From contig NZ_FNHG01000007.1 in assembly GCF_900103475.1 (NCBI RefSeq), positions 61,256 through 125,255 of the forward strand: a DNA stretch of 64,000 nt, written 5' to 3'. Positions 11,342 to 27,808 of the stretch are shown here, piece by piece. A program made the position numbers and the translations under genes. Below the pieces are notes generated by a model. It made no database searches. It saw nothing but the letters and a program-made list of their open reading frames with translations, and was not told the origin of the DNA. Source of the stretch: Maricaulis salignorans (GTDB lineage: Bacteria > Pseudomonadota > Alphaproteobacteria > Caulobacterales > Maricaulaceae). The number at the start of each line of letters is the position of its first letter. Position 1 is the first letter of the stretch.

Positions 11342-11376
11342 CCGGCGGCATCGCCAGGACGACGCGACAGAACAAG

Positions 11377-11402
11377 ACCCCGGAGCGATCCGGGGTTTTT
11401 CT
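11377..11402 (+). terminator. Rho-independent terminator after the SleB-like gene
   Basis: Perfect 8-bp stem ACCCCGGA / TCCGGGGT with GCGA tetraloop, followed by TTTTTCTTT. Classic intrinsic terminator on the plus strand. Confidence 0.9.
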
Positions 11403-11543
11403 TTGCCCGGGGCTCGGGGCCCTGGCGCGCGGGCTCAACGGGCCATGCGGGCCCGGCATGCTTAACGATATTGGTTATTAAGACATTGCTGCAAAGCTTC
11501 CGGCGTCAGGGATTGCATCAAACGTCCCGGTTTCGGATCAGGC

Positions 11544-12425
11544 ATGAGCGCTTCAACCTCTACCACCACCCCGCAACGGCTCTGGCTGTGCATGAATGAC
11601 AGCCCGCGCTTGCGGACCCTGTCGAGGGTCCTGGCGGAGGGCATGGATGTCACGGTGTATCTGGGGCCTCAATCGGTACCCGATGGTCCTGTCGCCGTGA
11701 TGCTGGTCGATGATGCCAATGCCGCCCTCGTGGAAACCGCGCGGGACCACGCGGCCACAGCACAAAAAATCGTCCTGGTGACGAGTGGTTCCCGGCGGGC
11801 CGGGGCGGCCGATCTCTACCTGCCCGGTGATATTGATGCCGGCCCGCTTGCGACGGTGATTGAAGGTCTGCTCGCCTATCGCGAGTTCGAGATCTCGCCG
11901 GCGGCGGCGCTTGAGCCGGTCATGACCCTGCACAATGCCACATTCAGCGTCCGGACCATGGCCGAGGCAAGCCGGCTGGCCAATTTCCTCGCCGCCACAC
12001 TGCCACGCGCCTGTGAAATGGCGGTCGGGCTCTATGTCCTGCTCGCCAATGCCATCGAATTTGGCAATCTCGGCTTTTCCGCTGCGGAGAAGGCCCAGGG
12101 TCTGGCAACCGGCAATTGGCGGCGCAAGCTCGCGCAGCGCCTGGCCGAGCCGGGCTTTGCCTCACGCTGTGCCAGTATCGAGTTTCAGCGCGGCGAGCGC
12201 CTGGTCACCATCCTCGTCCAGGATGATGGTGATGGCATCAGCGTGGAAGCTGACATGTCCGGTGATCCGGAACGGTCGAGCTATCGCAGCCGGATCGTGA
12301 AAGTTCTCAAATCGCTTGGCTTCGCCGAGCTGACCTGGCTGAGTGCGGGCGTCACTGCCGCGGCGAGTGTCGTGCTGGAGCCGACTGCAAGGCTGGTTAC
12401 CGGCCGCGCCGCACCGCGGCCCTGA
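11544..12425 (+). CDS. Degenerate receiver + HATPase-like signalling protein
   Basis: 293 aa. The N-terminal ~110 residues have the alternation of a receiver (LWLCMNDSPRL..., VAVMLVDDANAA, KIVLVTSGSRRAGAADLYLPG) but the usual DD pair and lysine are not in place, so phosphorylation is doubtful. The C-terminal part (about 135-275) looks like an anti-sigma/histidine-kinase-type ATPase: ACEMAVGLYVLLANAIEFGNLGF (N-box-like helix) and ILVQDDGDGIS (G1-like box). This resembles RsbW-like or CheY-HATPase proteins of alphaproteobacteria. No adjacent sigma factor or kinase was seen; the partner is unknown. Confidence 0.6.
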   Translation: MSASTSTTTPQRLWLCMNDSPRLRTLSRVLAEGMDVTVYLGPQSVPDGPVAVMLVDDANAALVETARDHAATAQKIVLVTSGSRRAGAADLYLPGDIDAGPLATVIEGLLAYREFEISPAAALEPVMTLHNATFSVRTMAEASRLANFLAATLPRACEMAVGLYVLLANAIEFGNLGFSAAEKAQGLATGNWRRKLAQRLAEPGFASRCASIEFQRGERLVTILVQDDGDGISVEADMSGDPERSSYRSRIVKVLKSLGFAELTWLSAGVTAAASVVLEPTARLVTGRAAPRP

Positions 12426-12829
12426 CCCGCCAGCCTCGTCCCCGGCACTTGCTGCCAGACACTCCCCGCCTGATACCGCCCGCCTGATACCGCCCGCCTG
12501 ACGTCGTCTGGCTGACGCCGTTTGCCTGGCCGTGCCGCCGCGATTCTGCGGTTTCAGCCGAACAGTCCCGAATCGGCCCCGGTTTGGCGTCGCCGATCCG
12601 CCCGGCTTGAGCGGGACCCGTATCGCCGGGATGGTCCATGCCCCCATATTGCTCGCGAGCCCGCGCAGGGCAGGACTTGTTTTTCAATAGTTTAGACGCG
12701 GACATCTGGCATTCATCGACCTGTCGGCTTTCTGAATGGCGCCCTCAGGATCGGCTCACATGGCTTCAACTAGAACAGCATCAGTCTTCGATGCATTGGG
12801 CGTCGGGCCACACCAAATGGAGTTAAGCC
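12426..12829 (+). other. 404-bp intergenic region upstream of the curlin gene
   Basis: No convincing gene. It holds a tandem 14-bp unit (12467-12480 and 12481-12494, with a partial third copy) and, nearer the curlin gene, a relatively AT-rich stretch (12675-12715) that may hold the promoter. No clear -35/-10 pair was resolved. Confidence 0.4.
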
Positions 12830-13342
12830 ATGAAAATTCGTCTTTTCCTCGCCAGCGCCCTCGTCGCTGTTTCTGTCCTCGGTACGGTTGGTGCTGCTGA
12901 AGCACAATCACGCAATCGCGTCGCCATCAGCCAGCAAGGCTATAATAACGACATCGCCGGTCGCCAGAATGGCCACCGCCAGTCGATGGTGATCAATCAG
13001 CGCGGCGATCGTCAATATGTCACCGTGATCCAGGACGGCGCCCGCAACGGCACCACGGTCGGTCAGTCCGGTCGCTATAACCAGGCCCATGTCGACCAGT
13101 TCGGCCGCAGCAATGATGCGGTGATCGGTCAGCAAGGCCGGAATAATTACGGCACCAGCGTCCAGACCGGCAATCGCAATCTTTCGGGCATCGCCCAGAT
13201 GGGCCGCAACAACACCGCGACGACGAACCAGTATGGTTCCAATAACGGTGTCGGCATCATCCAGGTTGGCAATGGCCAGAACGCCCACGTCAACCAATCC
13301 GGTAGTGGCAATGTCACCCTGGTCATCCAGGGCGAGCACTAA
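12830..13342 (+). CDS. Curlin-repeat amyloid subunit (CsgA/CsgB-like)
   Basis: 170 aa with a Sec signal peptide (MKIRLFLASALVAVSVLGTVGAAEAQ). The mature chain is built of about seven ~19-residue curlin repeats with the Gln-x-Gly-x-x-Asn pattern: ISQQGYNND, VINQRGDRQ, VIQDGARNG, VGQSGRYNQ, VDQFGRSND, IGQQGRNN, IAQMGRNN, NQYGSNN, IQVGNGQN and NQSGSGN. It is secreted to form extracellular amyloid fibres in biofilm matrix. The downstream csgH gene supports the call. Whether it is the major (CsgA) or nucleator (CsgB) subunit cannot be decided; no CsgG/E/F is in the window. The ATG at 12830 is preceded by GGAGTTAAGCC. Confidence 0.9.
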   Translation: MKIRLFLASALVAVSVLGTVGAAEAQSRNRVAISQQGYNNDIAGRQNGHRQSMVINQRGDRQYVTVIQDGARNGTTVGQSGRYNQAHVDQFGRSNDAVIGQQGRNNYGTSVQTGNRNLSGIAQMGRNNTATTNQYGSNNGVGIIQVGNGQNAHVNQSGSGNVTLVIQGEH

Positions 13343-13358
13343 CACCGGACGCAGGCTC

Positions 13359-13382
13359 GGGGAGGGCAGGTCAGCCCTCCCC
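13359..13382 (+). promoter_or_regulatory. Strong hairpin between curlin gene and csgH
   Basis: Perfect 9-bp GC-rich stem GGGGAGGGC / GCCCTCCCC with loop AGGTCA and no T-run. It lies 17 nt after the curlin stop and 60 nt before csgH. It could stabilise the curlin mRNA 3' end or partly attenuate read-through, giving more subunit than chaperone. Confidence 0.6.
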
Positions 13383-13442
13383 AAACGGCCATTCCGGCCA
13401 GCCCGCCACCCATGAAACCCCGCAGTCGAGAAGGAGACTGTC

Positions 13443-13841
13443 ATGAGCATGAATATTCTGGCTGCCAATGTCGCAGCAATCTCTGGCGCAGCCCTGCTGG
13501 CACTCCAGCCTGGAGAGCCTGATGGCTTTGCCCACTCGGCGGCCGATGCGGCCCGTTACGCGGACTCAGCCTGCCATATCGAGCTGGCCGCGACACCGGA
13601 CGGTCTGTTGATCACGGCCTGGGGTGAGGGTGAGGCGGGAAGCAATTACCGCATGGTTGTCACCCAGCGCACGGGCGGCGGTGGCTTCGACATTGTCCAG
13701 GAGGGCGATGTGCCGCTCAGCGGCAGTGAAGACACGCTGTTATCCGACATCCTGCTCGACACCGATGCGGATTTCTCGGCCCGGCTGTCGACCTGGAATG
13801 CCAGTGGCGACCCGGTCTGCAACTGGAATGAACGGGTCTGA
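13443..13841 (+). CDS. csgH: Curli assembly chaperone CsgH (alphaproteobacterial CsgC-like)
   Basis: 132 aa from ATG 13443, with AAGGAG 6 nt upstream. N-terminal hydrophobic segment (IAANVAA-like, residues 4-22) followed by a ~95-residue beta-sandwich domain starting CHIELAATPDGLLITAWG and ending DPVCNWNERV. The two cysteines bracket the domain and could form a disulfide, as in CsgC/CsgH periplasmic amyloid inhibitors. In the family it keeps curlin soluble in the periplasm before export. Position directly after the curlin gene supports the call. Confidence 0.8.
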   Translation: MSMNILAANVAAISGAALLALQPGEPDGFAHSAADAARYADSACHIELAATPDGLLITAWGEGEAGSNYRMVVTQRTGGGGFDIVQEGDVPLSGSEDTLLSDILLDTDADFSARLSTWNASGDPVCNWNERV

Positions 13842-13989
13842 TCGAGACCGGCCATTGCGGGCTTTCCGTGATGGCCGGTTCGCAGACCGCCAGGCCCGGA
13901 TCCGGCCATAGCAGGTATTCACCATCCCGCCTCTGGCCCTTTGTCTCGAACGGCCCCATCTGGTGGCTTCCAATCAAGGGGAAGTCATC

Positions 13990-14496
13990 ATGTCCATTCC
14001 ATTGTCATCCATTGCCAAAACCCAGCTCGACCAGACCTATCGCGCGCTGGACGGTATTCTCGCCAAGGCCGCGGCCCACGCCGCCGAGCACAAGGTCGAT
14101 GAGGCGGTTTATCTCGACTGGCGCCTGACGCCCGACATGTTTGCGCTCAAGCGCCAGGTCCAGCTGGTCAGCGATTTCTCTGTCCGCGGCCTGTCGCGCC
14201 TGGCCGGACAGGATCCGGTCTCCATCCCCGATACCGAAGCCACATTTGATGATCTGCGTGCCCGTCTGGCCGCCGCCCGCGCCGCCGTCTGGGCCCTGCC
14301 GGCCGCCGCGCTTGATGCCGAGCCCTCGGGCGAGGTCACCTTCCCGGCCGGCCCCGGCAAGGAAATGACCCTGCCGCGCCATGCCTTCGTGCAGAATTAC
14401 GTCCTCGCCAATGTCCTGTTCCACGCCTCGATGGTTTATGCGGTGCTGCGCAGTATCGGCGTTCCGGTCGGCAAGCGCGACTTCCTCGCCGTCTAG
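13990..14496 (+). CDS. DUF1993 family protein
   Basis: 168 aa from ATG 13990, preceded by GGGGAAG. All-alpha protein with the DUF1993 pattern: an initial helix (LDQTYRALDGILAKAAAHA), DEAVYLDWRLTPDMFALKRQVQLVSDF, ARLAGQDP, then FVQNYVLANVLFHASMVYAVLRSIGVPVGKRDFL at the C-terminus. The fold is related to the DinB four-helix bundle. Function unknown; no obvious link to the curli genes or the Lon-domain gene that flank it. Confidence 0.85.
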   Translation: MSIPLSSIAKTQLDQTYRALDGILAKAAAHAAEHKVDEAVYLDWRLTPDMFALKRQVQLVSDFSVRGLSRLAGQDPVSIPDTEATFDDLRARLAAARAAVWALPAAALDAEPSGEVTFPAGPGKEMTLPRHAFVQNYVLANVLFHASMVYAVLRSIGVPVGKRDFLAV

Positions 14497-14650
14497 GGCG
14501 AGGAGCGCTCACGCCTGTCCCGTCACCCCTGCGACCGGCATGCCTCAGCCCAGGCGGCGAGGCGTGCCGGTCCGGGGGCTGCGCCATCAGGGGCACAGAA
14601 ACCCCGGCCACACCCTTGGCGGCGGCGCCCGGCCTTCCTATCTCTGGAAC

Positions 14651-15298
14651 ATGAACGAGACACAGACACTGCCCGCCTCCCTGCCGCTCTTCCCGCTCGC
14701 CGGCTGTATCCTCCTGCCCGGGGAATTACTGCCGCTGAACGTGTTCGAGCCGCGCTATCTCAACATGGTCGATGATGCCCGCCGCGAGGGTGGGCATATC
14801 GGCATTATCCAGCCGCAATCCGGCGATGCCGCCGCGCCCGCGCCCGGACAGCCGGCCCTGCATCGGGTTGGCACGGCCGGGCGTATCAAATCCTTCGTCG
14901 AGACCCGTGATGGCCGCTATCTGCTGACCCTCGCCGGGGTCAGCCGTTTTGCCCTCAATGCCGAGGCGCAGGCCGCTAGGCCCTACCGGGTCGGCCGGGT
15001 CGACTATAGCGGTTTTGCCCAGGACCTGGCACCGCGTCCGGCGCTGCAGGGTGACCGCTCGCGGCTGATCCGCCTGCTCGGCGTCTGGCTGGCCGGCGAG
15101 AATATCCAGCTCGACTGGAGCGGGCTTGAACACATGCCTTTCGAGGCCCTGGTCGACCGCATTGCCATGCTCGCACCCTTGCCGCCCCAGACCCGCCAGG
15201 ACCTGCTCGAGGCGTCCGGCAGTGCGGCGCGTGCGGTGATGATTGAAGCGCTGGTGGCCGGCCTGATTGCCGCCCGGGCCGGTGGCCGGCCGCAATAG
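14651..15298 (+). CDS. Lon N-terminal (substrate-binding) domain protein
   Basis: 215 aa from ATG 14651. LPLFPLAGCILLPGELLPLNVFEPRYLNMVDDA is the hallmark opening of the Lon substrate-binding (LAN) domain, followed by HIGIIQPQ, RVGTAGRIKSF and the helical tail. No AAA+ ATPase or protease domain is present, so this is a stand-alone domain protein, widespread in alphaproteobacteria (often beside trxA, which is not the case here). It probably acts in protein quality control, but no mechanism is established. Confidence 0.88.
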   Translation: MNETQTLPASLPLFPLAGCILLPGELLPLNVFEPRYLNMVDDARREGGHIGIIQPQSGDAAAPAPGQPALHRVGTAGRIKSFVETRDGRYLLTLAGVSRFALNAEAQAARPYRVGRVDYSGFAQDLAPRPALQGDRSRLIRLLGVWLAGENIQLDWSGLEHMPFEALVDRIAMLAPLPPQTRQDLLEASGSAARAVMIEALVAGLIAARAGGRPQ

Positions 15299-15305
15299 GC
15301 TTGCC

Positions 15306-15761
15306 TCAGGGGCGCTGGGCGCGAAGCCAGGCGAGCGCCTGCTCGCGCGAGCGGAAGGCGCGGGCGACACCATCCATCTTGTCGATCACCTGCAGGGCGG
15401 TGCGCAACTGGTCCTGCTGGTCGCCGCGGCCGATGAAGGCCAGCGGCATGCCGCGGCACTGGCGGCCAATGTAGCGGATGCGGGTTTCCAGCTCGACCTT
15501 TGAGAAATTGAAGTCGGCGGCGCGGATGTCGAAGGCGGCGAGCCGGATAGATTCGCTACGCAAAAGACTGTTGAAGGCGCGCTCACCATCGCTGCCGGAT
15601 TTCGACACGCGCGGTCCCTCGCTCCGCATTTCCAGCAGACCGTTATCAATGCGTATCTCGAACTCACTGGTCGAATACGTGCGCAAACCGGATATTTTCC
15701 CCTGATCCTCAAAATCAACGACAGCGTATGGAGGTGAAGTTTGCAGAAAATGCGGCCACAA
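15306..15761 (-). CDS. STAS/SpoIIAA-like domain protein, unproven
   Basis: Up to 151 aa. The body reads FEIRIDNGLLEM, SIRLAAFDIRAADFNFSKVELETRIRYIGRQ and CRGMPLAFIGRGDQQDQLRTALQVIDKMDGVARAFRSREQALAWL, which fits the alpha/beta pattern of SpoIIAA-like STAS proteins: beta-strand, D-R-dipole, long helix, then AFIG strand and a final helix. The first ~30 residues from the ATG at 15761 are poorly convincing; a TTG start nearer 15690 is possible. It converges on the Lon-domain gene. Confidence 0.5.
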   Translation of the reverse strand: MWPHFLQTSPPYAVVDFEDQGKISGLRTYSTSEFEIRIDNGLLEMRSEGPRVSKSGSDGERAFNSLLRSESIRLAAFDIRAADFNFSKVELETRIRYIGRQCRGMPLAFIGRGDQQDQLRTALQVIDKMDGVARAFRSREQALAWLRAQRP

Positions 15762-15958
15762 CGCGACATTTTGCCCACTTTTGCCTTAATCTGGGGCGAA
15801 GAATTCCGCACGACAGCGGTGTGAGACAGAATTTTGTCCATACTTTCATGTGGTCAGCCCAAATCATGCGCACAGGACCAATGCCGGGGGCGTGCCAGGG
15901 CCAGGCGGGGCTGGAGCCGGCGAATGCCGACATAGGGCGCCTGGCGCCGGCGCGGCGT

Positions 15959-16339
15959 TCAGGGCTGTGACAGGTCTCGATCTCGCGGGAATAGCTTGCG
16001 GCGAAGATCATCGCGCAACTGCTCCGCTTCCGCTTCCGGCAGCCCGACCGGCTGAGGGTGCAGCGCCGCCTCGGCCGCCTCGACGGCCGTTGGCGGTTCG
16101 CCATCCTCATCGATCGGGTTGCCAGCCGGCCCGGCATCCATCTCCGGCGCGGCCGGCAAAACCTCCTGTATCAGATCCGCCTGCCGCCAATGCCCCCGCG
16201 CCGCCCATTGATACAGCGTCGAGACCGGCACCGACAACGCCCGAGAAATCTCCGCCATCCGACACCCCTCAGCGCGCATGGACCGCGCCCGGGCTTCCAG
16301 GCTTGCAACACGTTCAGGAGATCTGCGGGTTCCGGCCAT
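15959..16339 (-). CDS. Small helix-turn-helix protein
   Basis: 126 aa from the ATG at 16339. Residues about 10-50 (ARARSMRAEGCRMAEISRAL followed by SVPVSTLYQWAARGHW) form a homeodomain/Xre-like HTH of the kind in phage terminase small subunits and transposase-like regulators. The C-terminal half is acidic and disordered (PEMDAGPAGNPIDEDGEPP) and ends in a charged helix. It lies just beyond the inverted repeat at the edge of the restriction island and could be a mobile-element relic or a resident regulator. Confidence 0.55.
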   Translation of the reverse strand: MAGTRRSPERVASLEARARSMRAEGCRMAEISRALSVPVSTLYQWAARGHWRQADLIQEVLPAAPEMDAGPAGNPIDEDGEPPTAVEAAEAALHPQPVGLPEAEAEQLRDDLRRKLFPRDRDLSQP

Positions 16340-16464
16340 GCGGGGGAGTACAGGGCTGGACGGGGAGAGGGGGATGACAAGGTATTGATTTTTTTTGTTT
16401 GGTGTTGCTTTTGGGAGCAGGGTCCCAGCCCAGACCCGCCCATAATTCCCTTGCCTGGAACTCC

Positions 16465-16546
16465 GCCGTATCAAAGCCGCGCCGTCAAGGCGCATGCCCG
16501 CTTCGCGGCGCCGAAGGCGGCCTTGACGGCGCGGCTTTGATACGGC
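16465..16546. repeat. Perfect long inverted repeat at the island edge
   Basis: Left arm 16465-16491 and right arm 16520-16546 are perfect reverse complements over 27 bp, separated by a 28-nt spacer that itself contains CGCTTCGCGG-type short complementarity. The arms begin CCGTATCAAAGCC. The stem would be extremely stable in RNA. No T-run follows on either strand, so it is not a typical terminator. It sits 48 nt from the end of the restriction endonuclease gene. Confidence 0.9.
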
Positions 16547-16593
16547 CCGCTAGCTGGCATGGGGGTTGGGGGGAAATTGCGTGTGTCCCGCTT

Positions 16594-17448
16594 TCAATTG
16601 CTCACAAAGCCTGAGGCATGACGCTCTTTCTTGAGGATGATCTCACGGTCCCGCTGGTCGCGCGGTCGGAAGGCCATGACGTATTCCCGGCCAAGCTTGA
16701 TGCCTAGGTGGCGCAGGAGAGGGCCGTCTTGGGTCCCGCTCAATACGACGATGCCTCTCGGGTGCAATTGATCGCGTGCGCCGCCGTTCCGCCTAATGCG
16801 TTTCATGGGATCGAGCTGGTGGCCTACGGTCTGGATTACCGAGCGATGCAGGGGCTTGCCCAGGAAGAGTTCGAACAAGGCTAGCACGCGTTCGGTCCCG
16901 CTTTCGTGCAAGAATATCTGCTCCGCGTCGTTTGCGTTGACTGTTTCCCAGATATTGACCGGGAATGGCTCTTGGTAGGCCAGCCAGTGAATATTGTCCT
17001 TGCTGGCTTTGCTGAAGCTTCTCTTTCCATCCCGGTTCTTGCCAGGATTGAGGCTTCCGTCCACGGCCATTGCAAGTCCAAAGCTGAACAGTGATTTGGC
17101 GACATCGGCTTGGCAGAGGATGCAGGCATGGCCCACGGCTTCGGGCGGAATCATCCAGTTCTCGCGGGAGGTGAATTTGACATCGACATCATGGGCGCCG
17201 ATCCGGAAGTCGAGCTTGCCGCGGGGGAAGTTCAGCAATTGGCGCAACGCCGCCTCGACTTTAATGCCCAGAACAGCTTTCTCGTTTGGGTCTAGCTCCG
17301 CAAACCGAAGGCGGCGTGTGCGGGGCGCATCGATGAGCTCGTCGATCGCCTGTCTGAACAAAAACGGCAGTTCAGACAGTAGGGCCTGCTCACCACCGGC
17401 AGCTGCCACTATCCGTCGCCGAATTTCAAAAATTGGAGTGTCTGGCAT
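16594..17448 (-). CDS. NaeI-family type II restriction endonuclease
   Basis: 284 aa from ATG 17448, with GGAG just upstream. The endonuclease core has LDFRIGAHDVDVKFTSREN: D80, D89 and K91 with E65 upstream keep almost the same spacing as the acidic residues and lysine of the NaeI active site. The conserved WMIPPEAVGHACIL block follows. The C-terminal half carries MKRIRRNGGARDQL, then HPRGIVVLSGTQDG, matching the NaeI DNA-binding/allosteric domain. NaeI cuts GCCGGC and needs a second site. It follows the C5 methyltransferase gene by 57 nt, as expected for an R-M pair. Specificity here is inferred only. Confidence 0.8.
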   Translation of the reverse strand: MPDTPIFEIRRRIVAAAGGEQALLSELPFLFRQAIDELIDAPRTRRLRFAELDPNEKAVLGIKVEAALRQLLNFPRGKLDFRIGAHDVDVKFTSRENWMIPPEAVGHACILCQADVAKSLFSFGLAMAVDGSLNPGKNRDGKRSFSKASKDNIHWLAYQEPFPVNIWETVNANDAEQIFLHESGTERVLALFELFLGKPLHRSVIQTVGHQLDPMKRIRRNGGARDQLHPRGIVVLSGTQDGPLLRHLGIKLGREYVMAFRPRDQRDREIILKKERHASGFVSN

Positions 17449-17505
17449 CTCTCCGCCCCCCGGGGTTGCACGGGAAACAGATATCAGGCCGACTTAACCA
17501 AACCT

Positions 17506-18501
17506 TTAAGCGACCGTCCTGACGGGATAAACCAGTTTTGCGGATTGGAGCGCGGTGGCCAGCTTGGTTGCAACGGCCTGCGCCACCGGCGGCGGGAATG
17601 CATTCCCAACCTGCCGGTAGGCCGCCGTCTTCTTGCCGGTAAACTCCCACTCGTCCGGGAAGCCCTGGATGCGGGCGACCATTGGGACGGTGAGGCGCGG
17701 CATGCCCACGAAGTCCGGGTCGGGCGCTTCGTTGGCGATGGTCTTGCCATTGACGCCGAGCGCGGCCCAGGCGGCCTTGGCGCGGGTCGGGCCGAGGTCG
17801 GGGCCACCATGCTTCTTGGAGCCGCCGACAATGGTCGGGGCGATGGTATTGGCGCGCTCGCGCCAGAGATCGGCACCAAGCCAGCCGCGCGCGGCCATTT
17901 GGTCATGCAAGGTCTCGCCAACCGTGGCGGCTTTGCCCGGGCTTGCGCCGGGCCAGGCGAAATCATCTTTGAAGGCGTCTTTGATGGCGACGATAATGAC
18001 GCGCGGGCGCAATTGCGGGACGCCATAGTCGGACGCGTTCAGCAATTTCCATTGAGTGTGGTAGCCCAGCTTGCGGAGCTCAGCCTTCAGATGAGCGCGA
18101 TAGTCTTCGAATGCGGGGCTAAGAAAGCCGCGCACATTTTCGATCATCACGGCGCCAGGGCGGATCTCGTCGATAATGTCGAGGGCGGCGGGGAAGAGAT
18201 TGCGTTCATCGAGCTCACCAAGCTGTTTGCCGGCGACGGAGAAGGGCGGGCAGGGCAGGCCGCCGGCCACGAGGTCAACGCCTTTATAGGCGCTGACGTC
18301 AAACTGGCGGATATCGCCTTCCCAGACATTCCATTCCGGCCGGTTGTGCCGCAGCGTGCGGCAGGCATCGGCATCAATCTCGGCGACACACTCATGGGAA
18401 AAGCCCGCACCCTCCAGGCCAAGCGCCTGGCCGCCGGCGCCGGCGCAGAGCTCGACTGAGCTGAGCATGTTGGAGAGATTGAATTGGCTTTGACGCGACA
18501 T
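17506..18501 (-). CDS. dcm: DNA (cytosine-5) methyltransferase
   Basis: 331 aa from the ATG at 18501, with GGGGA 7 nt upstream. Motif I SVELCAGAGGQALGLEGAGF binds SAM; motif IV GGLPCPPFS contains the catalytic Cys84; motif VI is ENVRGF; motif VIII is QLRPRVIIVA; motif X is YRQVGNAFPPPVA. The variable target-recognition region lies between VIII and X and is short. It presumably protects the sequence cut by the adjacent NaeI-like enzyme. No Vsr mismatch endonuclease is nearby. The frame is open further upstream to 18633, but that part lacks motifs and a good ribosome site. Confidence 0.93.
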   Translation of the reverse strand: MSRQSQFNLSNMLSSVELCAGAGGQALGLEGAGFSHECVAEIDADACRTLRHNRPEWNVWEGDIRQFDVSAYKGVDLVAGGLPCPPFSVAGKQLGELDERNLFPAALDIIDEIRPGAVMIENVRGFLSPAFEDYRAHLKAELRKLGYHTQWKLLNASDYGVPQLRPRVIIVAIKDAFKDDFAWPGASPGKAATVGETLHDQMAARGWLGADLWRERANTIAPTIVGGSKKHGGPDLGPTRAKAAWAALGVNGKTIANEAPDPDFVGMPRLTVPMVARIQGFPDEWEFTGKKTAAYRQVGNAFPPPVAQAVATKLATALQSAKLVYPVRTVA

Positions 18502-18531
18502 ATTGTGTCCCCAAGTGTTGCCCCACACTAA

Positions 18532-18600
18532 ATACTGTGGCTGAAGTGAACAATAGAACAAATAGGGAACATACTGTGTTATACACAAGATGTCTAGCGT
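18532..18600 (-). promoter_or_regulatory. Probable promoter/control region of the R-M pair
   Basis: An AT-rich 149-bp gap separates dcm from the upstream gene. Two copies of the octamer CACAGTAT (minus strand; 18532-18539 and 18571-18578) lie 39 bp apart. A TTGTGT and CTATTT pair with a 17-nt spacer lies between and upstream. Independent transcription of dcm-REase, perhaps with feedback control, is likely. No C-protein gene was found. Confidence 0.4.
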
Positions 18601-18650
18601 TTCGGCGCAGCGCCCCTGCCCGTGCGCGATCAAAATAAACTAAGCTTGGT

Positions 18651-19820
18651 CTATCGGGCGCGCAGGCCCTGCCTGGCATGCCTGTCTACCCACGTCTGCC
18701 AAGCGTCTACGTCATAGTTGCTCGCTAGCAGCAGTTTACGCGTTCCGGAGATTGCCGCCTCCCTGGTCTTCTCGTCACTATCCATCGCTTGATCGATATC
18801 CCAGAAGCGCACTTCGACCTTCTTCGCGACTGCCGCGGCCGCAGCGGCCTCGACCAGAGGCGCTGAGGCCGGCTCGGCCAGGAGTGTTTGAGGTCCCGTG
18901 TTCAATCGGAAGGCAACGGCAAGCATATCTGGCTCCGTGTGGGCGACGCGATAGGCATAGCAACTGATCATCTCAACGGATCCCGGAAAATTGGGTTGCC
19001 GGGACAAGACGGCCAACAAGAACTTTCCAACACCGACTGCAAAAAGGCGTACAAGACGTTCGTCTGGCGCGGACAGAATGTTGCGCACACACTCCTCAAA
19101 GTCGCCAAAATCAGCCCCGACAGCGGCCGAGATTTCTACATCAAAGTTGCTCTCGGGACGTGCTAAATTGTCCTTAATTGCGTTCCAGATTTCTTGTATG
19201 TCTCCAACCAATCCGTCCGTAGTGACACGGGTGGTAAGGTACAGCAACCAGGGTTGGGCGGCGCCCAGTTGATGCGTGATCAATGCTTTGAGCGAAGCCA
19301 TATTTGTTGGGCGCTCGACGGTTCCATTGCCGGTCAAGTGATCACAGAAATCCAAATTCACAACATCGAATTTTCGAGACCCTTTCAGTAGCTGAGCGGC
19401 TTGTGACGACGGGACGGCAATTTGTTCTAGGCGGTCCGGTGTTATTTGGCTGGCATCGGATACTCTATCGGCCTGCTTTAACGCTGCCTCAGCGGGGAAC
19501 CAAAACTCATTCCCCCTCGGTTCGGCCTCGCCAGTGCCGATAAAGCCAAGATATTCCAGCTCGATGGTGAATTTTGCACATATGTCGCTCAATACTCGCA
19601 CGTCCCACATATCTGGGCCCGGAAGCGTGAGGTAATTCAATCGGCGGTTGGCGCAGGGGTACTTTTTTAGGTGACTCGTGAGTGCGGAGCCCCACTGGTA
19701 GTCTCGGACTATTTGCTTCACAGGCAGGTGCCATGGTGCAAAATCCCGAGAGCCAGCGGGAACGTCTTCAGGACGTTGACCATAGATTTCATCCAGGTCG
19801 ATATCAGGAACGTCGCTCAA
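18651..19820 (-). CDS. Unrecognised protein coupled to the GHKL ATPase (Rossmann/methyltransferase-like?)
   Basis: 389 aa. It starts with TTG at 19820, overlapping the GHKL gene's stop (TTGA), so the two are translationally coupled. I do not recognise a named family. The segment LNYLTLPGPDMWDVRVLSD (61-79), then FTIELEYLGFIG (84-95), and FDVVNLDFCDHL (151-162) with PWLLYLTTRVT (190-200) looks like a Rossmann-type alpha/beta domain of SAM-methyltransferase style. No complete SAM motif I (GxGxG) is visible. The C-terminal region is helical and Ala-rich. It may be a substrate or effector partner of the ATPase. Confidence 0.6.
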   Translation of the reverse strand: MSDVPDIDLDEIYGQRPEDVPAGSRDFAPWHLPVKQIVRDYQWGSALTSHLKKYPCANRRLNYLTLPGPDMWDVRVLSDICAKFTIELEYLGFIGTGEAEPRGNEFWFPAEAALKQADRVSDASQITPDRLEQIAVPSSQAAQLLKGSRKFDVVNLDFCDHLTGNGTVERPTNMASLKALITHQLGAAQPWLLYLTTRVTTDGLVGDIQEIWNAIKDNLARPESNFDVEISAAVGADFGDFEECVRNILSAPDERLVRLFAVGVGKFLLAVLSRQPNFPGSVEMISCYAYRVAHTEPDMLAVAFRLNTGPQTLLAEPASAPLVEAAAAAAVAKKVEVRFWDIDQAMDSDEKTREAAISGTRKLLLASNYDVDAWQTWVDRHARQGLRAR

Positions 19821-21802
19821 CGGACGACCTTCAATATTTGCGCTACAATTTCTGCATGTTGGTCAAACGACTTTTCAGTCAATAAATCGAAAGCAAGTAA
19901 GATTTCATATATGGCCGTTGCTTGACGCTTCACTTCAGGGTCAAGCGTCGAAGCCCCAATTGACTTGGAAATTTCCGATTCATCCAGTGTCAGATTGCCA
20001 TCGTCTCGGGAGCGATTTATCTCTGCAAATTCAGAAAAAACTTCAATACTTGGTCGTGGCTCGTCTCCACGCTCTCGTTGCCAGAGCTCTTCTAGGCTTG
20101 ATTCAATAAAATCTTCATTGTTTTCTATAAAATGCAGCTTGCGCGTATCCCGCAGTCGCCTGGAAATTTCTTTATGCTTGTTGGTTAGTTTTCTAAGTGA
20201 TCTGTGAAGCCAACTCTGTACGAACTGTATATGGGGGTGGGCATAATTGAAGGACTCTCGGTCGATATTCAACGCAGCATCGACACCATCATGAACAAAA
20301 ATCTCCGACACAATTTGCCGTAATCTTGTGGTCTCAGAGATCTTGTAGTTCAAAAAGCTTTCATCAAAATACGCGGAGCTTGCGCCACGAATTCTGATTA
20401 AAACGCCATTATTGTCTCGTGGAATTACGCGCCCATTCCAAAACAAATATCCGTCAAAGGATAGATCGCCACCCCGAATAGTCGGGTCAACCTTTGATAG
20501 GTCGGGTTTGAATTTGCCAACAAACAACAGTGAGTTGGGCAGCCCGCGTTCGCCTGTGGAAATGTGGCGGTACCGAATCGGGCGTCGGAGGAGAATTCCA
20601 TCGACATCCACATCGAAGCTACCGACTGGCGTTTGCTCGTTCTCCATCAGCAGCGGGGCGCCAGCTACTTGATCCCGGGCGGCCTCCCTGACGGTACAGC
20701 CTGAGGTCAAGTCCAACTCCTGGGCTGGAGTGCTGGAATCTGGTGGCAACCAAAAGGCTTTGATCGAGTCTTTCGCTGAGAGCTCGAATGGGGACGGTCC
20801 CACGTAGCGAACTGGCGACGACAGCGCTAGGTTCCAAACCATGTGGAGGTAGGCGTCCAGCGAGGATGAAAGATCTGGCCGTTGAACTCTGGTTGTTTGG
20901 CTTTCGACAGCATCCATCAAAAGCGACATCCGCTCATCGGCGGGCGTGTCGCTGCTCCATGGAAGCGACGGCCCACGCTTTATCTCTCCCTCGCGAGTGG
21001 CGCCAACGAATTGCCCAATATGGTGAGCAGGGACAGATTCTTTTATGCTGGCGAAGGTGTCCCAATCATTTGAAAGGGCAGCTTTGTCTTTTTCGTCGAT
21101 GAGGCGCCAGCGGTCGGTCGAGGAGAGAATTTTTCGTACGTTTGGTTTGACATAGCTAATAATTATGTCGGTCCCGTGCGCATATGTGTCCTCCGTGGGT
21201 TCGGTTTTTATGAAGACCTTCCCCGATCGAAACGAGTCTTCGCCATCTCTTGAGTCGCCCTGCGCGCTATTGTCCTCTTCGTAGGTTCGAAGGTGAATCT
21301 CGGCTATCGTACGGTAAGATTCACCCTCAACCTTTGTTGCGATTGTGAACTGCCTTGCGAGTTGGCTAACGGCGAACATGCCAACGCCGATTTTGCCTAT
21401 AATTGGTCGTCCGTTTGGCGTGAGGCCGACATCGGCTTTTGAGGTGATGCCGAGTTCCTTGCCCTCATGTGTCCGTTTGGCACTTCCACCAATGGACTTG
21501 ATCAACCGAGTGAGGGTCTGAAGGGACATTCCCCTTCCGTCGTCACTCACCGTAACCCTGGAAAATCTAGGGGCGTCCGTGTGGATAGTAACGCGCGACG
21601 CGTCTGCATCCCAAGCGTTCGAAATTAGTTCCCGAAATGCTGCTGCTGGTTCGCGGTAAATTCCGTCGGTGACGCGGGCGATCACCCGATCGCTTGCTTC
21701 CAAGTCCGTCACGACAAAGCCACCGTCGTAGCTTTCACTGCGGAGGTAGTCTTGAACTTCTTGGCCGTCCTTGCGGAATGGGATGGGCTCTGCGTCCTGC
21801 AT
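19817..21802 (-). CDS. GHKL (HSP90/MutL/MORC-like) ATPase
   Basis: 661 aa. The ATP-binding Bergerat fold is at the N-terminus: N-box FRELISNAWDADA (57-69; E58 and N62), G1 box DDGRGM (87-92) and G2 GKIGVGM (136-142). An S5-like transducer follows (FWNGRVIPRDNNG, IRGASSAYFDESF about residue 480), then a charged helical C-terminus. Related prokaryotic MORC/HSP90-like ATPases sit in restriction and other defence loci. The start ATG at 21802 has only a weak ribosome site. The gene is visibly less GC-rich than its neighbours, with many A/T-ending codons, which points to horizontal transfer. Confidence 0.85.
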   Translation of the reverse strand: MQDAEPIPFRKDGQEVQDYLRSESYDGGFVVTDLEASDRVIARVTDGIYREPAAAFRELISNAWDADASRVTIHTDAPRFSRVTVSDDGRGMSLQTLTRLIKSIGGSAKRTHEGKELGITSKADVGLTPNGRPIIGKIGVGMFAVSQLARQFTIATKVEGESYRTIAEIHLRTYEEDNSAQGDSRDGEDSFRSGKVFIKTEPTEDTYAHGTDIIISYVKPNVRKILSSTDRWRLIDEKDKAALSNDWDTFASIKESVPAHHIGQFVGATREGEIKRGPSLPWSSDTPADERMSLLMDAVESQTTRVQRPDLSSSLDAYLHMVWNLALSSPVRYVGPSPFELSAKDSIKAFWLPPDSSTPAQELDLTSGCTVREAARDQVAGAPLLMENEQTPVGSFDVDVDGILLRRPIRYRHISTGERGLPNSLLFVGKFKPDLSKVDPTIRGGDLSFDGYLFWNGRVIPRDNNGVLIRIRGASSAYFDESFLNYKISETTRLRQIVSEIFVHDGVDAALNIDRESFNYAHPHIQFVQSWLHRSLRKLTNKHKEISRRLRDTRKLHFIENNEDFIESSLEELWQRERGDEPRPSIEVFSEFAEINRSRDDGNLTLDESEISKSIGASTLDPEVKRQATAIYEILLAFDLLTEKSFDQHAEIVAQILKVVR

Positions 21803-21915
21803 TTTTTAAAGTTGCATAGACATTGGTACGATAGTCAACCAATTCTGCACTCAATTCTGTCGATTCCTGCGTGCGCTGGATAATGCTCCAGGGATGAAAA
21901 CTTGATGGCTTTCAC

Positions 21916-24081
<2,166 letters not shown>

Positions 24082-24235
24082 GGCCGAGATATACGCACGC
24101 CAGGCCGCCGCGACCAGAGGGGCCGGGTGCGATGCTGACGTCAGGCTGTCAGGAGGCGCTCATATCGAATTAACCACGGGTAGGCGGATATTAAGCCGCA
24201 GGCGCTAGTCTGCGGGTTCTGTTCTGGAGATCCCG

Positions 24236-24670
24236 ATGTCTGCGTTTGACCTGTCCGGCCTTAATATTCTGCTGCTCGATGACAGCCGCTCGATCCGGCA
24301 GGTGCTCACAACCCTGTTGCGGGGGCTGGGCGTGACACGGATTTATGAAAGCCGCGACGCCGATGAGGCCCTCGTCACCGCGCGCCTGTGCCGGCCTGAT
24401 CTGGCGCTGGTCGATTATGATCTCGGCCTGACCAGCGGGCTGGAGGCGGTCCGGCGCTTCCGGGATGCGCGTTGCAGTCCGCGGCCGGACCTGCCGATCA
24501 TCCTGCTGGCGCCGCCGAACTTGCCGCACGTCTCGCGCGGTGCCGAGGCCGCCGGGATCGACGCCATCCTGCCCAAGCCGGTCAATGCAACGACATTGGC
24601 GGCGCACATTCACCAGATCGCGCAGGCCGGTGCCTTGCGCGCGCTCTCGCCGCTATCCCGTACCGCTTAA
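24236..24670 (+). CDS. Single-domain response regulator (CheY-like)
   Basis: 144 aa, one receiver domain with no output domain. Acidic pair in LNILLLDDSRSIRQVL, phospho-acceptor aspartate in PDLALVDYDLG, and conserved lysine in DAILPKPVNATTL; the usual T/S is replaced in IILLAPPNLPHV. It is followed by 20 residues of tail. No kinase is adjacent. It probably works in a phosphorelay or as a soluble partner, as do many orphan CheY-like proteins in Caulobacterales relatives. Confidence 0.88.
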   Translation: MSAFDLSGLNILLLDDSRSIRQVLTTLLRGLGVTRIYESRDADEALVTARLCRPDLALVDYDLGLTSGLEAVRRFRDARCSPRPDLPIILLAPPNLPHVSRGAEAAGIDAILPKPVNATTLAAHIHQIAQAGALRALSPLSRTA

Positions 24671-24725
24671 TCAGTAATTCAGTTCTTTCAGGCTACTGAA
24701 AGGCACCAGCACGCCGAGGTTCGCA

Positions 24726-25181
24726 ATGCCAAATCAAATTCTGCTAGGAGTTCGCATCCTGATTGTCGAGGACGTTGCCGCGACCCGACGCCTGATCGCA
24801 CGCTTGCTTGGCAGTCTCGGTTGCCATGACCTGATTGAGGCAGATGGTGTCGAAGGCGCCTGGCAGCACCTTAACCGGCAACAGATTGATTTGATGCTGC
24901 TCGATTATGAACTCCTCGATGGAACCGGCATCAAGCTGATGCAGGAATTGCGTGCCAATTCCGCCTCGCCCAACCAGTCCGTTCCGACCATCATGTTGAC
25001 CGGTCATTCCGAGGCGGCGGTTGTCGAGCAATCCATCCGCGCCGGCGCCGATGGCTTTCTGGTGAAGCCGGTCATGCCGGACAAGCTGGGGCGGCGCATC
25101 CTGGAAGTCCTGTCCAGTCGAAAAAGCGATATCGTCCGGGCGGCCGGACAAGGTCCAAAGACTGAAGTGCAGTGGATCTAG
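24726..25181 (+). CDS. Single-domain response regulator
   Basis: 151 aa receiver with all catalytic residues: VRILIVEDVAATRRLI (ED), LMLLDYELLDG (phospho-Asp), IMLTGHSEA (Thr) and DGFLVKPVMPDKL (Lys). It lies 55 nt after the previous receiver on the same strand, so the two may share a transcript and arose by duplication, although identity between them is only moderate. The partner kinase is unknown. Confidence 0.88.
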   Translation: MPNQILLGVRILIVEDVAATRRLIARLLGSLGCHDLIEADGVEGAWQHLNRQQIDLMLLDYELLDGTGIKLMQELRANSASPNQSVPTIMLTGHSEAAVVEQSIRAGADGFLVKPVMPDKLGRRILEVLSSRKSDIVRAAGQGPKTEVQWI

Positions 25182-25206
25182 ACTCGCCTGTCCCGGCGCG
25201 CCGGTA

Positions 25207-25599
25207 TCATGCGTCGTCGAACACCCCGGCCTCGATCACGGCGTCCAGACCCGTTTCCAGATAATCGCCCAGCATGGGCGCTCCGAGCAGGTATTCGGCG
25301 GTTGGTGAGCTGCGGCGCGCCAGGGCTTCCCTGACCGCAGCGATGAATTCGCTGCCATCGAAATCGCCCCGGCCGATCCAGTACAGGGCCACCAGTTCGA
25401 CCTGGCTCTCCTCATCAAGGCAATCGATCCAGTTCTTGATCTCGTCGCGGATGGGGTCACGATCTCCGGTCAGCATCGATTCGACAAAATCAACTTCGGA
25501 ACTGTCCGGGTCCGATTGAAAATCGTCGATTTGTTCCTTGCTGTCATAGGCTCGGGCCCGAAAGATCAGGCTGCGGACTGACTTTTCTGCCATATTCAT
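25207..25599 (-). CDS. DUF3775 family protein
   Basis: 130 aa from the ATG at 25599, with AAAGGA 7 nt upstream (a GTG at 25605 is in frame). It has the DUF3775 pattern: acidic linker, WIDCLDEESQVELVALYWIGRGDF and TAEYLLGAPMLGDYLETGLDAV at the C-terminus. Soluble and acidic. Function unknown; it is embedded among orphan receivers but on the opposite strand. Confidence 0.82.
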   Translation of the reverse strand: MNMAEKSVRSLIFRARAYDSKEQIDDFQSDPDSSEVDFVESMLTGDRDPIRDEIKNWIDCLDEESQVELVALYWIGRGDFDGSEFIAAVREALARRSSPTAEYLLGAPMLGDYLETGLDAVIEAGVFDDA

Positions 25600-25866
25600 G
25601 GCCACGTCCTTTTCCTCATTTGCCGTGTCGGCGGCTGGCCGGGCGATGTTAGCATAATGGGCGCGCGAAAGTGAGCCGGTGGCCTGGCGCGCGCGAAGCG
25701 TGAAGGGCAGCGGCAGGGTGCGGCTCCGCTAACCCACTGGAAACTGGTGCCGCACTGCACAAACTGGCGCTCAAGCCAAACTGGCGCATGCCGGGGCAAG
25801 ACTTGGTTAAGGTCAAACGGGCAGACTCGAACCGTCCAGAGATTCACCACTGCTCAGTGAGACCCC

Positions 25867-26376
25867 ATGTCCGGCAGTTTCGACCGCATCCGTGTCCTGA
25901 TCGTTGAGGACAATGCGCACATGTCGACGATCCTGCGCACCATCCTGCAAGGGTTTGGTGTCCGCACGATTATCGAGGTGCGCGACGCCGCCGATGCGTT
26001 TGAAACCATGCGCGACGTCAATCCGGATTTTGCGCTGGTCGATTACATGCTGGGCGATCTGAACGGCCTGGAATTCACGCGCCTGGTCCGCACCGCATCC
26101 GATAGTGCCAACAAGTATCTGCCGATTATCATGGTCACCGGTCACACCGACCGTTCCAAGGTCATCGAGGCGATCAATGCCGGCGTCAATGAATACCTCG
26201 CCAAGCCGGTTCGTCCGGTTGACCTGTTCCGCCGCATCTCGGCACTGATCGAACGGCCGCGCCGCTTCGTGAAGGCGTCGACCTATTTCGGCCCCGACCG
26301 CCGCCGCCGGCAGGATCCGCGCTTTGCCGGTCCCTGGCGCCGTTCCACCGATGATGAAGAGGCCGAGGCCTCCTGA
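25867..26376 (+). CDS. Single-domain response regulator with basic C-terminal tail
   Basis: 169 aa. The receiver has IRVLIVEDNAHMSTIL (ED), FALVDYMLGDLNG (phospho-Asp), IIMVTGHTDRS (Thr) and NEYLAKPVRPVDL (Lys). After the domain there is a conserved-looking tail STYFGPDRRRRQDPRF, similar to the tail of many alphaproteobacterial CheY-like proteins. It is the third orphan receiver within 2.2 kb. Confidence 0.88.
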   Translation: MSGSFDRIRVLIVEDNAHMSTILRTILQGFGVRTIIEVRDAADAFETMRDVNPDFALVDYMLGDLNGLEFTRLVRTASDSANKYLPIIMVTGHTDRSKVIEAINAGVNEYLAKPVRPVDLFRRISALIERPRRFVKASTYFGPDRRRRQDPRFAGPWRRSTDDEEAEAS

Positions 26377-26385
26377 GCCCGGTCC

Positions 26386-26724
26386 CTAAGGTGAGGCCCG
26401 CTCGCTGCTGGCCATCTCCCTGTAAATATTGAAGACGATCACAACTTCTTCGGCACCGACGGCCTTGCGCTTGCGGATGATCGAGGCGAAGTCTGCGTTA
26501 TTGACCAGTAGTTCCGGTCCGACCCTGACCAATTCCTCCCGGGTGATCAGGGCGGTGTCGCAGCTTAGCGGCGCACCGCAGCCGGACCGGCAGCTGATCG
26601 CGTCCGCCTGACTCAGCATTTCCCCAAGTGCGATGGACGCGTCGCGGTCAGCAATGAAGACGCGGCCGAAAGGATCAAAGCCCACCGAACTGAGATGAAA
26701 CAATACTCCACGACCTTGTGCCAT
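26386..26724 (-). CDS. Conserved-looking hypothetical protein
   Basis: 112 aa from ATG 26724, with a strong GGAGGGAG site. The centre has ISCRSGCGAPLSCDTALITREEL with three cysteines, preceded by a GVLFHLSSVGFDPFGRVFIADRD strand region. The C-terminus is a helix with EEVVIVFNIYREM. I do not recognise the family. It converges on the receiver gene and precedes the threonine aldolase on the same strand with a gap of about 50 nt in the opposite order. Confidence 0.6.
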   Translation of the reverse strand: MAQGRGVLFHLSSVGFDPFGRVFIADRDASIALGEMLSQADAISCRSGCGAPLSCDTALITREELVRVGPELLVNNADFASIIRKRKAVGAEEVVIVFNIYREMASSERASP

Positions 26725-26776
26725 GGCTCCCTCCTGTCGATTGAGACACAAGGTGTACACCTTTTGTTCCGCAATC

Positions 26777-27808
26777 TCAAGGCGAGAATCGATTCGCGGC
26801 GGCGATCAGGCCCCGGATCTCATCGGCCAGGGTGCACCAGCTGGTGACGAAGCGGGCAGAGCCGTCGGGCCATTGGTAGAAGCGGGCACCAGCGGCGCGC
26901 ATACGGTCTGCGAGGGGTTCCGGAATGCGGGCGAAAACCTCATTGCCATCAACCGAATGCAGAATCTCGACGCGCGGGAGGGCGGCCAGTCCGGCGGCGA
27001 GCTCGCCGGCACGGGCATTGGCAGCCCGCGCCAGGTCCAGCCAGAGATCATCGTCCAGCCAGGCTTCGAACTGTGCGGCCATGAAGCGCATTTTTGGCGC
27101 CATATGACCCCCACGTTTCTGCCGCCCCTGCAGGGCTTCGAACCGGTCGAGCACGGACGGGAAGAGCACGACCGCCTCGGCCCCGAGCGCCCCGTTCTTG
27201 GTCGCGCCGAAGCACAAGGCATCGACGCCGGCCTTCCAGGTCAGTTCCGCCGGTGTGCAGCCCAGCGAAACCAGCGCGTTGGCAAAGCGGGCTCCGTCCA
27301 TGTGGACCAGGGCCGGGCGTTGCCTGAGCCGCCCTGTGCGTTCGGTGACTTCAGAGACCGAGTAGGCGGTGCCGCTTTCAGTCAGATTGGACAGTGAGAG
27401 CACGCGCACCGGGCTGGTGTGGACAAAGCCTTCGGGGATTTCTGCCAGGGCCCGGTCGAGCGCGGACAGGTCGATCTTGGCATGCGCCCCGGTCAGCGGG
27501 ATGAGCTTGGCACCGCCGGTGAAGAATTCCGGTGCACCGCGCTCGTCGCGATGGATATGGGCCTCGTCATGACACAGGATGGCACCATCGGGCGGGCACA
27601 GGACGGACAGCGCCAGAGCGTTCGAGGCGGTTCCGGAAACCGCGAACAAGACCTTGAGATCGCACTCGAATATCTCGCGCAGCCGGGTCTCGACCCGGGC
27701 GGAAATCGCGTCATGGCCATAGCTGGACTCGAAGCCGGTATTGGCGGCGGCGATGGCTTCGATCAGTCGGGGATGGGCGGGGGCGGTGGTGTCGGACAGG
27801 AAGTTCAT
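26777..27808 (-). CDS. ltaE: Low-specificity L-threonine aldolase
   Basis: 343 aa PLP enzyme that cleaves threonine/allo-threonine to glycine and acetaldehyde in the cytosol. MNFLSDTTAPAHPRLIEAI opens the fold (fold-type I, beta-eliminating lyase/aldolase group). HDEAHIHRDERGAPEFF, VHMDGARFANALVSLG (PLP aspartate) and LCFGATKNGALGAEAVVLF (Lys Schiff base in the ATKNG motif) identify it. Full length. Glycine supply would fit the nearby glyQS only loosely. Confidence 0.9.
   Translation of the reverse strand: MNFLSDTTAPAHPRLIEAIAAANTGFESSYGHDAISARVETRLREIFECDLKVLFAVSGTASNALALSVLCPPDGAILCHDEAHIHRDERGAPEFFTGGAKLIPLTGAHAKIDLSALDRALAEIPEGFVHTSPVRVLSLSNLTESGTAYSVSEVTERTGRLRQRPALVHMDGARFANALVSLGCTPAELTWKAGVDALCFGATKNGALGAEAVVLFPSVLDRFEALQGRQKRGGHMAPKMRFMAAQFEAWLDDDLWLDLARAANARAGELAAGLAALPRVEILHSVDGNEVFARIPEPLADRMRAAGARFYQWPDGSARFVTSWCTLADEIRGLIAAANRFSP

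Follow-up and report, generated by a model that had tools for sequence, protein, structure and literature searches.

A question raised by a four-gene locus of Maricaulis salignorans is how a predicted ATPase and its partner protein relate to the restriction-modification (R-M) genes beside them. The locus lies in a 64,000-nucleotide stretch of contig NZ_FNHG01000007.1 (assembly GCF_900103475.1, positions 61,256 to 125,255 of the forward strand), referred to here as the window, and consists of four open reading frames (ORFs) at 21802-16594, all on the minus strand and adjoining uvrB, that encode a GHKL ATPase, its partner, a C5 cytosine methyltransferase (MTase) and a NaeI-like nuclease (Table 1). 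All four ORFs were found as described in the original prediction, made from the sequence of the window, as was the 4-nt overlap in which the TTGA at 19820-19817 holds the ATPase stop and the TTG start of the partner. That prediction had wavered between one compact restriction system with an ATP-driven sensor and two adjacent defence systems. The reading that we favor, and to which we give somewhat more credence than doubt, is that the locus holds two modules, a NaeI-like R-M pair and an ATPase/partner pair, which likely share one MTase, with the ATPase pair being a predicted methylation-gated, restriction-like clamp.

The ATPase/partner pair is separate from the R-M pair in both composition and descent. 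The G+C content (GC) is 51.3% in the ATPase gene and 55.1% in the partner gene, compared with 64.7% in the MTase gene, 57.7% in the NaeI-like gene and 62.3% in the neighboring uvrB, and thus low GC is confined to the ATPase and partner genes, with a step between the partner and MTase genes. The earlier remark that the ATPase genes are less GC-rich than their neighbors holds for the first two genes. The MTase ORF is listed from 18633, but its true start is probably an ATG at 18468 or 18501, either of which places it 150-180 nt from the partner gene.

The descent of the pair was followed in 80 loci, the best of 144 ATPase relatives found with two exact ATPase peptides, as kept by a scan of a species-genome collection with an ATPase alignment; these loci are biased toward the subfamily of the window and are not independent of each other. 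A partner gene lies downstream of the ATPase gene in 76 of the 80 loci, and 72 of these 76 partner ORFs start within 60 nt of the end of the ATPase gene or overlap it, the other four being further off or split. Three of the four loci without a partner end within 115 bases of a contig edge and the fourth has a broken ATPase. In 32 of the 76 partner-bearing relatives the two genes could overlap by 4 nt in frame, and ATPase and partner distances correlate at 0.90 (53 loci). The ATPase and the partner are thus a regular pair. In three loci (L072, L074 and L042) the ATPase or the partner is split in two ORFs, suggesting decay or assembly errors in some copies.

The partner, which the original prediction took to be unrecognised, belongs to NCBIfam family NF047698 ('PP_RS20740 family'; 335.5 bits against a curated cutoff of 200), and all 67 partners scanned match this family at E values up to 0.01. 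A precomputed PF28273 assignment is present on the 54 relatives of the partner among the matches listed. The window partner has no match in the Pfam or PADLOC models scanned, none of the 67 partners matches the PADLOC 2023 models at E up to 0.001, and a PDB sequence search with the partner profile gave no match. In a fold comparison by VIA-align, covering the solved folds that it lists, the partner is predicted to have a class I methyltransferase fold. The S-adenosylmethionine (SAM)-binding motif I of class I methyltransferases is GxGxG-like; a recognisable SAM motif was not found in the partner, in which the loop after the first strand is LPGxD, conserved at 96-100% in 67 sequences. The sole paper found that names PP_RS20740 is a study of furfural tolerance in P. 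putida, the consulted part of which calls it a hypothetical protein. The family is rare: of 385 genomes of the class, only that of the window has a member, and tblastn with the window partner at E 1e-5 found nothing in collections of 72,556 plasmid and 50,697 phage records. Searches of plasmid and phage collections with the window ATPase returned partial GHKL matches only (7 and 2 records, respectively).

Of the 80 loci, 58 have a C5 MTase no more than 500 bp from the pair and 63 have one within 2 kb; the density of such genes falls from 0.77 per kb over the nearest 500 bp to 0.004-0.006 per kb at 6-10 kb. The profile used for this count was seeded from matches to the window's own MTase, and L071 enters both totals through a relic gene, although its complete NaeI-clade MTase at 301 bp leaves them unchanged. 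Co-occurrence of the pair with a methyltransferase is therefore common rather than rare, and the pair is not a housekeeping one, since its partner family is found in a single genome of the class sample. Complete MTase genes near the pair are upstream on the same strand in 32 cases and downstream and convergent in 26, the remainder being downstream on the same strand (3) or upstream on the opposite strand (2). All 63 near MTases of the tree carry PCQ or PCP. Fifty-one of the near-pair MTases form one clade (bootstrap 87; Shimodaira-Hasegawa-like approximate likelihood ratio test, SH-aLRT, 94), which we call the own clade, and seven from gammaproteobacteria fall within another. The own-clade MTase of L002 is most like M.HaeIII (full length, 111 bits), a likeness based on this single member. 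The expected target-recognition stretch of the own clade is conserved at least as much as most other parts of the protein, which suggests that its members may share one target. In 26 of the 80 loci, a Vsr-type gene lies no further than 6 kb from the pair.

The other two genes of the window bear out their predicted identities. The MTase matches PF00145 with 231 bits and is the only PF00145 match in its genome, and the nuclease matches PF09126 with 170.5 bits (cutoff 25) and PDB entry 1ev7 with an E value of 3e-27. The nuclease keeps all of the residues aligned to E70, D86, D95 and K97 of NaeI, which we take to be catalytic. Among 385 genomes of the class, six, including that of the window, have a NaeI homologue, as do 9 of 197 actinomycetes, and the pair is present in three of these 15 NaeI genomes, namely G564, G568 (on which the actinomycete sample is centred) and the genome of the window. 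The remaining 12 show no gene for the ATPase or its partner in the 11-20 kb around NaeI, and the pair is also absent around NaeI at L115-L117, which are NaeI loci of pair genomes in which NaeI is far from the pair. A C5 MTase is close to NaeI in 14 of 15 pair-free NaeI stretches (a set that omits those known to hold the pair: L021, L040, L045, L049, L055 and L062), and 13 of these MTases belong to the clade of the window MTase, referred to here as the NaeI clade. One of them has 71% identity to the window MTase, and NaeI-clade MTases share the conserved block KHGGPDLGPTRAK in the expected target region. Since members of this clade sit beside NaeI in stretches without the pair, the MTase and nuclease form an ordinary NaeI-like R-M unit, and the same pair-free stretches led us to reject the four genes as one obligate unit. 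The MTase and nuclease of this type IIE R-M system are same-strand neighbors in 5 of the 5 other NaeI genomes of the class sample, as in the window; what distinguishes the window unit from the known system is that it adjoins the ATPase pair and holds the only C5 MTase of its genome. As regards origin, then, the suggestion of two adjacent systems stands.

What appears to join the two modules is the MTase. L040, L049, L059 and L071 have a complete NaeI-clade MTase no more than 2 kb from the pair, and L045, L055 and L062 have one at 5-7 kb; 14 further pair loci have no MTase within 2 kb. Thirteen genomes with no intact own-clade MTase beside the pair were searched in full, these seven and L021, L046, L048, L060, L064 and L081; the PF00145 search listed 42 matches, of which 30 were given loci and classed. 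All 13 genomes carry a NaeI-clade MTase, and in six (L021, L040, L046, L060, L062 and L071) it is the only PF00145 match. A hidden Markov model built from MTases of NaeI genomes without the pair scored 414-528 bits on the NaeI-clade MTases of the 13-genome set versus at most 148 bits on other clades. In the background, 18 of 197 actinomycetes carry a NaeI-clade MTase (16 of 195 without two pair genomes) and 100 of 197 carry any C5 MTase. Fisher's test gave p = 4.5e-13 for all 13 genomes and p = 8.8e-7 for the six added ones, in which no NaeI-clade MTase is found in the flanks of the pair (7.7-9.9 kb on each side, 0.5 kb upstream in L060). In one of these six, L064, an MTase of a distant clade lies 8 kb from the pair. 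Eight of the 13 genomes also hold the NaeI nuclease, which was not found in the other five. The idea of one compact system thus survives in part, with the MTase as the probable link and the nuclease not shown to be a working part.

Two loci retain what looks like the replacement of one MTase by another caught in progress. Directly upstream of the ATPase gene of L071 is a 190-aa relic ORF of an own-clade MTase (9415-9987) that aligns to two parts (residues 4-54 and 177-346) of the 347-aa own-clade MTase of L080. The catalytic middle, with the PCQ and ENV motifs, is missing from it. In the same position in L040 is another own-clade relic (9598-9762), of which approximately the first 53 residues are recognisable, and in both loci a complete NaeI-clade MTase lies 300-400 bp downstream of the partner gene. 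Because all 13 genomes carry a NaeI-clade MTase and two hold own-clade relics, the own and NaeI clades look interchangeable for the pair; the relics raised our confidence in a shared MTase slightly and lowered the rival explanations a little. A quickly made ATPase tree (74 rows with SH-aLRT support only, after removal of seven loci whose ATPase ORF is shorter than 450 aa) requires 5 changes of the NaeI-MTase state, of which at least 4 are forced by well-supported branches, and judged from this tree the swap to a NaeI-clade MTase is recurrent. The window falls in a 14-row ATPase clade (SH-aLRT 100) in which each of the other 13 members, its closest relatives in the set of 80 loci, has an own-clade MTase at most 620 bp from the pair. 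Since it stands apart from the other NaeI-MTase cases on the tree, the window is an additional case of the swap.

How might the pair use a methyl mark? The ATPase matches PF13589 (55.6 bits against a cutoff of 25), as do all 51 ATPases scanned, and has an N-terminal GHKL domain, an Hsp90/MORC-like transducer domain to about residue 550 and long C-terminal helices. At the positions that we assume to be ATP-site motifs I-IV, residues E58, N62, D87, G89, G91, G136, G139, G141, G210 and T211 are invariant in 51 of 51 ATPases. The pair probably serves in defence, with unmethylated DNA as its target. The ATPase is predicted to dimerise around DNA through its GHKL and transducer domains, as in models for Hsp90, MORC and topoisomerase VI, and the partner, with its methyltransferase fold, to read the target site or its methylation state. 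Unmethylated incoming DNA would let the clamp close, and the closed clamp would either block the DNA, loop it as Iyer and colleagues proposed, or pass it to a nuclease, which may be Vsr in some loci and NaeI or host nucleases here. Methylated host DNA would be spared, and in the genome of the window this protection would come from the NaeI-type MTase instead of an own-clade one. The mark is assigned a protective direction because an own-clade MTase is missing or broken where the NaeI-clade MTase is present, in 13 of 13 genomes. A bolder version, which we put forward tentatively as possible rather than probable, is restriction without a nuclease, in which the absence of a C5 mark exposes DNA to attack by a GHKL clamp and a pseudo-methyltransferase reader, and the antidote methylase has been swapped repeatedly for that of NaeI, a type II system unrelated to the pair, in cis or in trans, leaving relics and two defences addicted to one mark.

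Several observations weigh against a shared MTase with a protective role. The NaeI recognition site, GCCGGC, is not avoided in the window, where it occurs 135 times versus 77 expected. The pair and the R-M unit of the window differ in GC and may have arrived separately, and no own-clade MTase relic was found at window positions 14000-26000, where all 66 matches fall at 17410-18633, on the present MTase and its margins. The expected target regions of the own and NaeI clades differ in sequence, and neither the ATPase nor the partner shows a recognised nuclease domain. The genome-wide search omits eight loci with no MTase within 2 kb (L026, L028, L032, L043, L052, L069, L074 and L076); in L026 and L052 an MTase lies 2.2-2.6 kb from the pair, and in L043 and L076 there is no MTase in approximately 9 kb downstream. 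Twelve of the 13 cases belong to the Actinomycetota and the other one to the Armatimonadota, and the background consists of actinomycetes only. Loss of the own-clade MTase would also be expected if the pair reads methylated DNA, and the direction of the mark, as deduced from gene content, carries much of the doubt. A literature search with most subscription papers and all of bioRxiv outside its scope gave no phage or restriction assay of the family, nor any account of the ATPase/partner pair with a methylase.

An alternative that we consider rather unlikely is that two independent defence systems simply lie side by side and that the ATPase pair works without an MTase or has lost it. Such an arrangement would agree with the pair-free surroundings of NaeI in 12 of 15 NaeI genomes and with the three NaeI loci of pair genomes that lie apart from the pair, and it would suit the different GC of the modules and the gap before the MTase. 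Moreover, defence genes cluster for many reasons, and HsdR, DruE and MkoA-like genes are found near the pair in other genomes. Independence, however, leaves unexplained why a NaeI-clade MTase is present in 13 of 13 genomes, six times away from the pair and against a background of 8%, why swaps recur on the ATPase tree and why own-clade relics lie beside complete NaeI-clade MTases. Dependence on a given MTase clade would look identical in genomes if the pair read the methyl mark itself, attacking or silencing DNA with C5 methylation in the wrong state (e.g., hemimethylated), much as MORC proteins do with methylated chromatin. The predicted methyltransferase-like fold of the partner would fit such a role, and eukaryotic MORC proteins are linked to the silencing of methylated DNA in the portions of the literature consulted. 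We nevertheless regard mark-reading as quite improbable, reasoning that the pair's own MTase marks the host at each site, so that self-avoidance would need another signal.

Two further alternatives deserve little credence. The pair could be a repair unit in which a MutL-like GHKL helper acts with Vsr to fix deamination mismatches at 5-methylcytosine produced by the adjacent C5 MTase. The ATPase does have a MutL-like GHKL domain, 26 of 80 loci have a Vsr-type gene nearby, and a possible recruitment of such proteins to mismatch repair is mentioned in the consulted part of Iyer, Abhiman and Aravind (2008, PMC2292703). Yet no Vsr match was found at window positions 10001-30000 or in 53 of the 80 stretches, some of which are short, and the family is rare and patchy, with 1 of 385 genomes of the class; we regard repair as very unlikely. 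Alternatively, and if anything a shade less credibly, all four genes could be one machine in which the ATPase pair drives or licenses a NaeI-like nuclease that requires looped DNA and two sites. The consulted part of PMC4081073 describes NaeI as a DNA-looping enzyme of type IIE with a connection to topoisomerases. A genome-wide search for NaeI in 38 genomes (the window's own and those of 37 of the 80 loci) showed it to be enriched among actinobacterial-type pair genomes: 9 of 21 have it (four of these 21 being Acidimicrobiia), compared with 7 of the 195 actinomycetes sampled, a figure that becomes 9 of 197 when two pair genomes are counted. On the other hand, only 6 of the 80 loci have NaeI in the stretch surrounding the pair, it was found in none of the other 16 pair genomes searched, NaeI R-M units are found without the pair, and the nuclease was not found in 5 of the 13 pair genomes with a NaeI-clade MTase.

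Our best reading of two modules sharing an MTase places the pair as a variant among the GHKL/paraMORC R-M systems, with a methyltransferase-fold partner and a swap of methylase clade. GHKL ATPases have been known in bacterial R-M loci since 2008, and in the sections of PMC2292703 compared here, ATPases with a GHKL domain and an S5-like transducer domain occur with DNA cytosine methylases and Vsr in patchy loci and are proposed as ancestors of the eukaryotic MORC silencing proteins; a minority of the operons lack helicases, and DNA looping is proposed. The plan of GHKL and transducer domains, the cytosine methylase and Vsr are common to these systems and the pair loci, whereas a regular methyltransferase-fold partner and the swap of methylase clade do not appear in those sections. 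In the features compared, the ATPase differs from MORC proper, paraMORC2 and paraMORC3, and we rejected these identities. The MORC S5 motif GhXhhpXXRhl is absent from the window ATPase and present in 2 of 51 ATPases, at residues 103 and 87, outside S5. The ExxxH of paraMORC2 is absent, no E and H four apart being conserved at 90% among the 51. The C-terminal restriction endonuclease-fold nuclease (DUF4263) of paraMORC3 and Shedu has no Pfam match in any of the 51 at E up to 0.01, a scan that could miss a very divergent domain. The BbrUII/HgiDII restriction enzymes (NF050001) match with 65.3 bits against a cutoff of 550, over residues 48-228 only. An HPH at residues 522-524, conserved among the ATPases aligned, is reminiscent of the C-terminal HxH described for paraMORC5 in the same sections, a lead only.

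The HEF_HK/Response_reg_2 systems (Bellieny-Rabelo 2021; consulted part of PMC8011034) resemble the pair in that genes for a C5 MTase, a GHKL protein and a partner adjoin in that order in 7 of 7 loci examined, and the GHKL domain of HEF_HK is related to that of the window ATPase (hhalign probability 96, 129 columns). They differ in that the GHKL protein is approximately 1000 aa and the partner 567-721 aa as called, compared with 661 and 389 aa in the window. Neither identity holds for the pair: PF19191 was found in 0 of 51 ATPases, PF19192 in 0 of 67 partners, and the hhalign probability of the partner with Response_reg_2 is 0.2. In VcSduA, a Shedu protein with a GHKL domain, mutants show that the GHKL ATPase is needed for antiphage activity (consulted part of PMC12137116); VcSduA has its own DUF4263 nuclease domain, and the window ATPase has no such Pfam match. 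Druantia type II, which the consulted part of PMC8565338 describes as DruE and DruF with DruM and DruG, shares with type IV and with the pair a C5 MTase, and the best PADLOC score of the window MTase is on DruM models (497 bits). The window has no DruE match and neither pair protein matches DruF or DruG.

None of the four genes is a helicase by Pfam, as the original prediction had noted, whereas DruE or SNF2 helicases lie near the pair in some relatives. A DruE helicase is near the pair in 3 of 80: in two Sphingomonas loci a long DruE gene is directly upstream of the ATPase gene (L018:4350-9872, 1783 bits with PADLOC; L066:4373-9874, assigned by similarity to L018), and in L005 a DruE relative downstream of the pair is cut by the end of the stretch. 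Past the pair and the NaeI-clade MTase, L040 (13474-19792) and L071 (13392-19708) encode a 468-aa protein, an SNF2 helicase, a NO VEIN C-terminal protein and a REase_II-like protein, and members of these four clusters are near the pair in L045 and L055. Beside the NaeI-clade MTase of L049 (7424-8314) and L059 (8331-8807) is an HNH-like protein with weak Pfam scores, possibly another nuclease that uses the same mark.

With a single ATPase, a partner of methyltransferase fold and an exchangeable methylase, so small a system would cleanly test whether a clamp of this kind discriminates DNA by methylation alone. If its dependence on the methylase of another system is true, the pair would be a clear case of two defences sharing a self-marking enzyme, and such sharing would help to explain the clustering of these modules.

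Table 1. Features of the four-gene locus in window coordinates.
Feature	Position	Strand	Remarks
GHKL ATPase, 661 aa	19817..21802	-	PF13589 match
Partner, 389 aa, NF047698 family	18651..19820	-	TTG start; predicted class I methyltransferase fold
Partner-methyltransferase gap with GC shift	18469..18650	-	One sigma-70-like match at 18596-18568
C5 cytosine methyltransferase, NaeI clade	17506..18468	-	ATG 18468 (18501 also possible); PF00145
NaeI-like type II restriction endonuclease, 284 aa	16594..17448	-	PF09126

A promoter scan of the region gave 3 sigma-70-like matches versus 2.7 expected, which is no enrichment, and an Rfam search of window positions 15000-22500 gave no match. Beyond the island is an orphan ORF of 151 aa (15306-15761, minus strand) that, among 41 genomes of the order, matched its own genome alone; a comparison with empty sites by means of this ORF was uninformative, the 40 other genomes having no match. 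Between it and the island lies an ORF of 178 aa (15959-16495, minus strand) with a weak gpP-like terminase/helix-turn-helix match (E 6e-4, just below the cutoff). Approximately 50 nt past the nuclease gene is a perfect 24-base inverted repeat (16468-16491 and 16520-16543), the stem of which extends further. No T run follows the repeat; the region at 16440-16570 has a predicted RNA fold of -82.6 kcal/mol (z -7.9), and the repeat arm occurs nowhere else in the genome.

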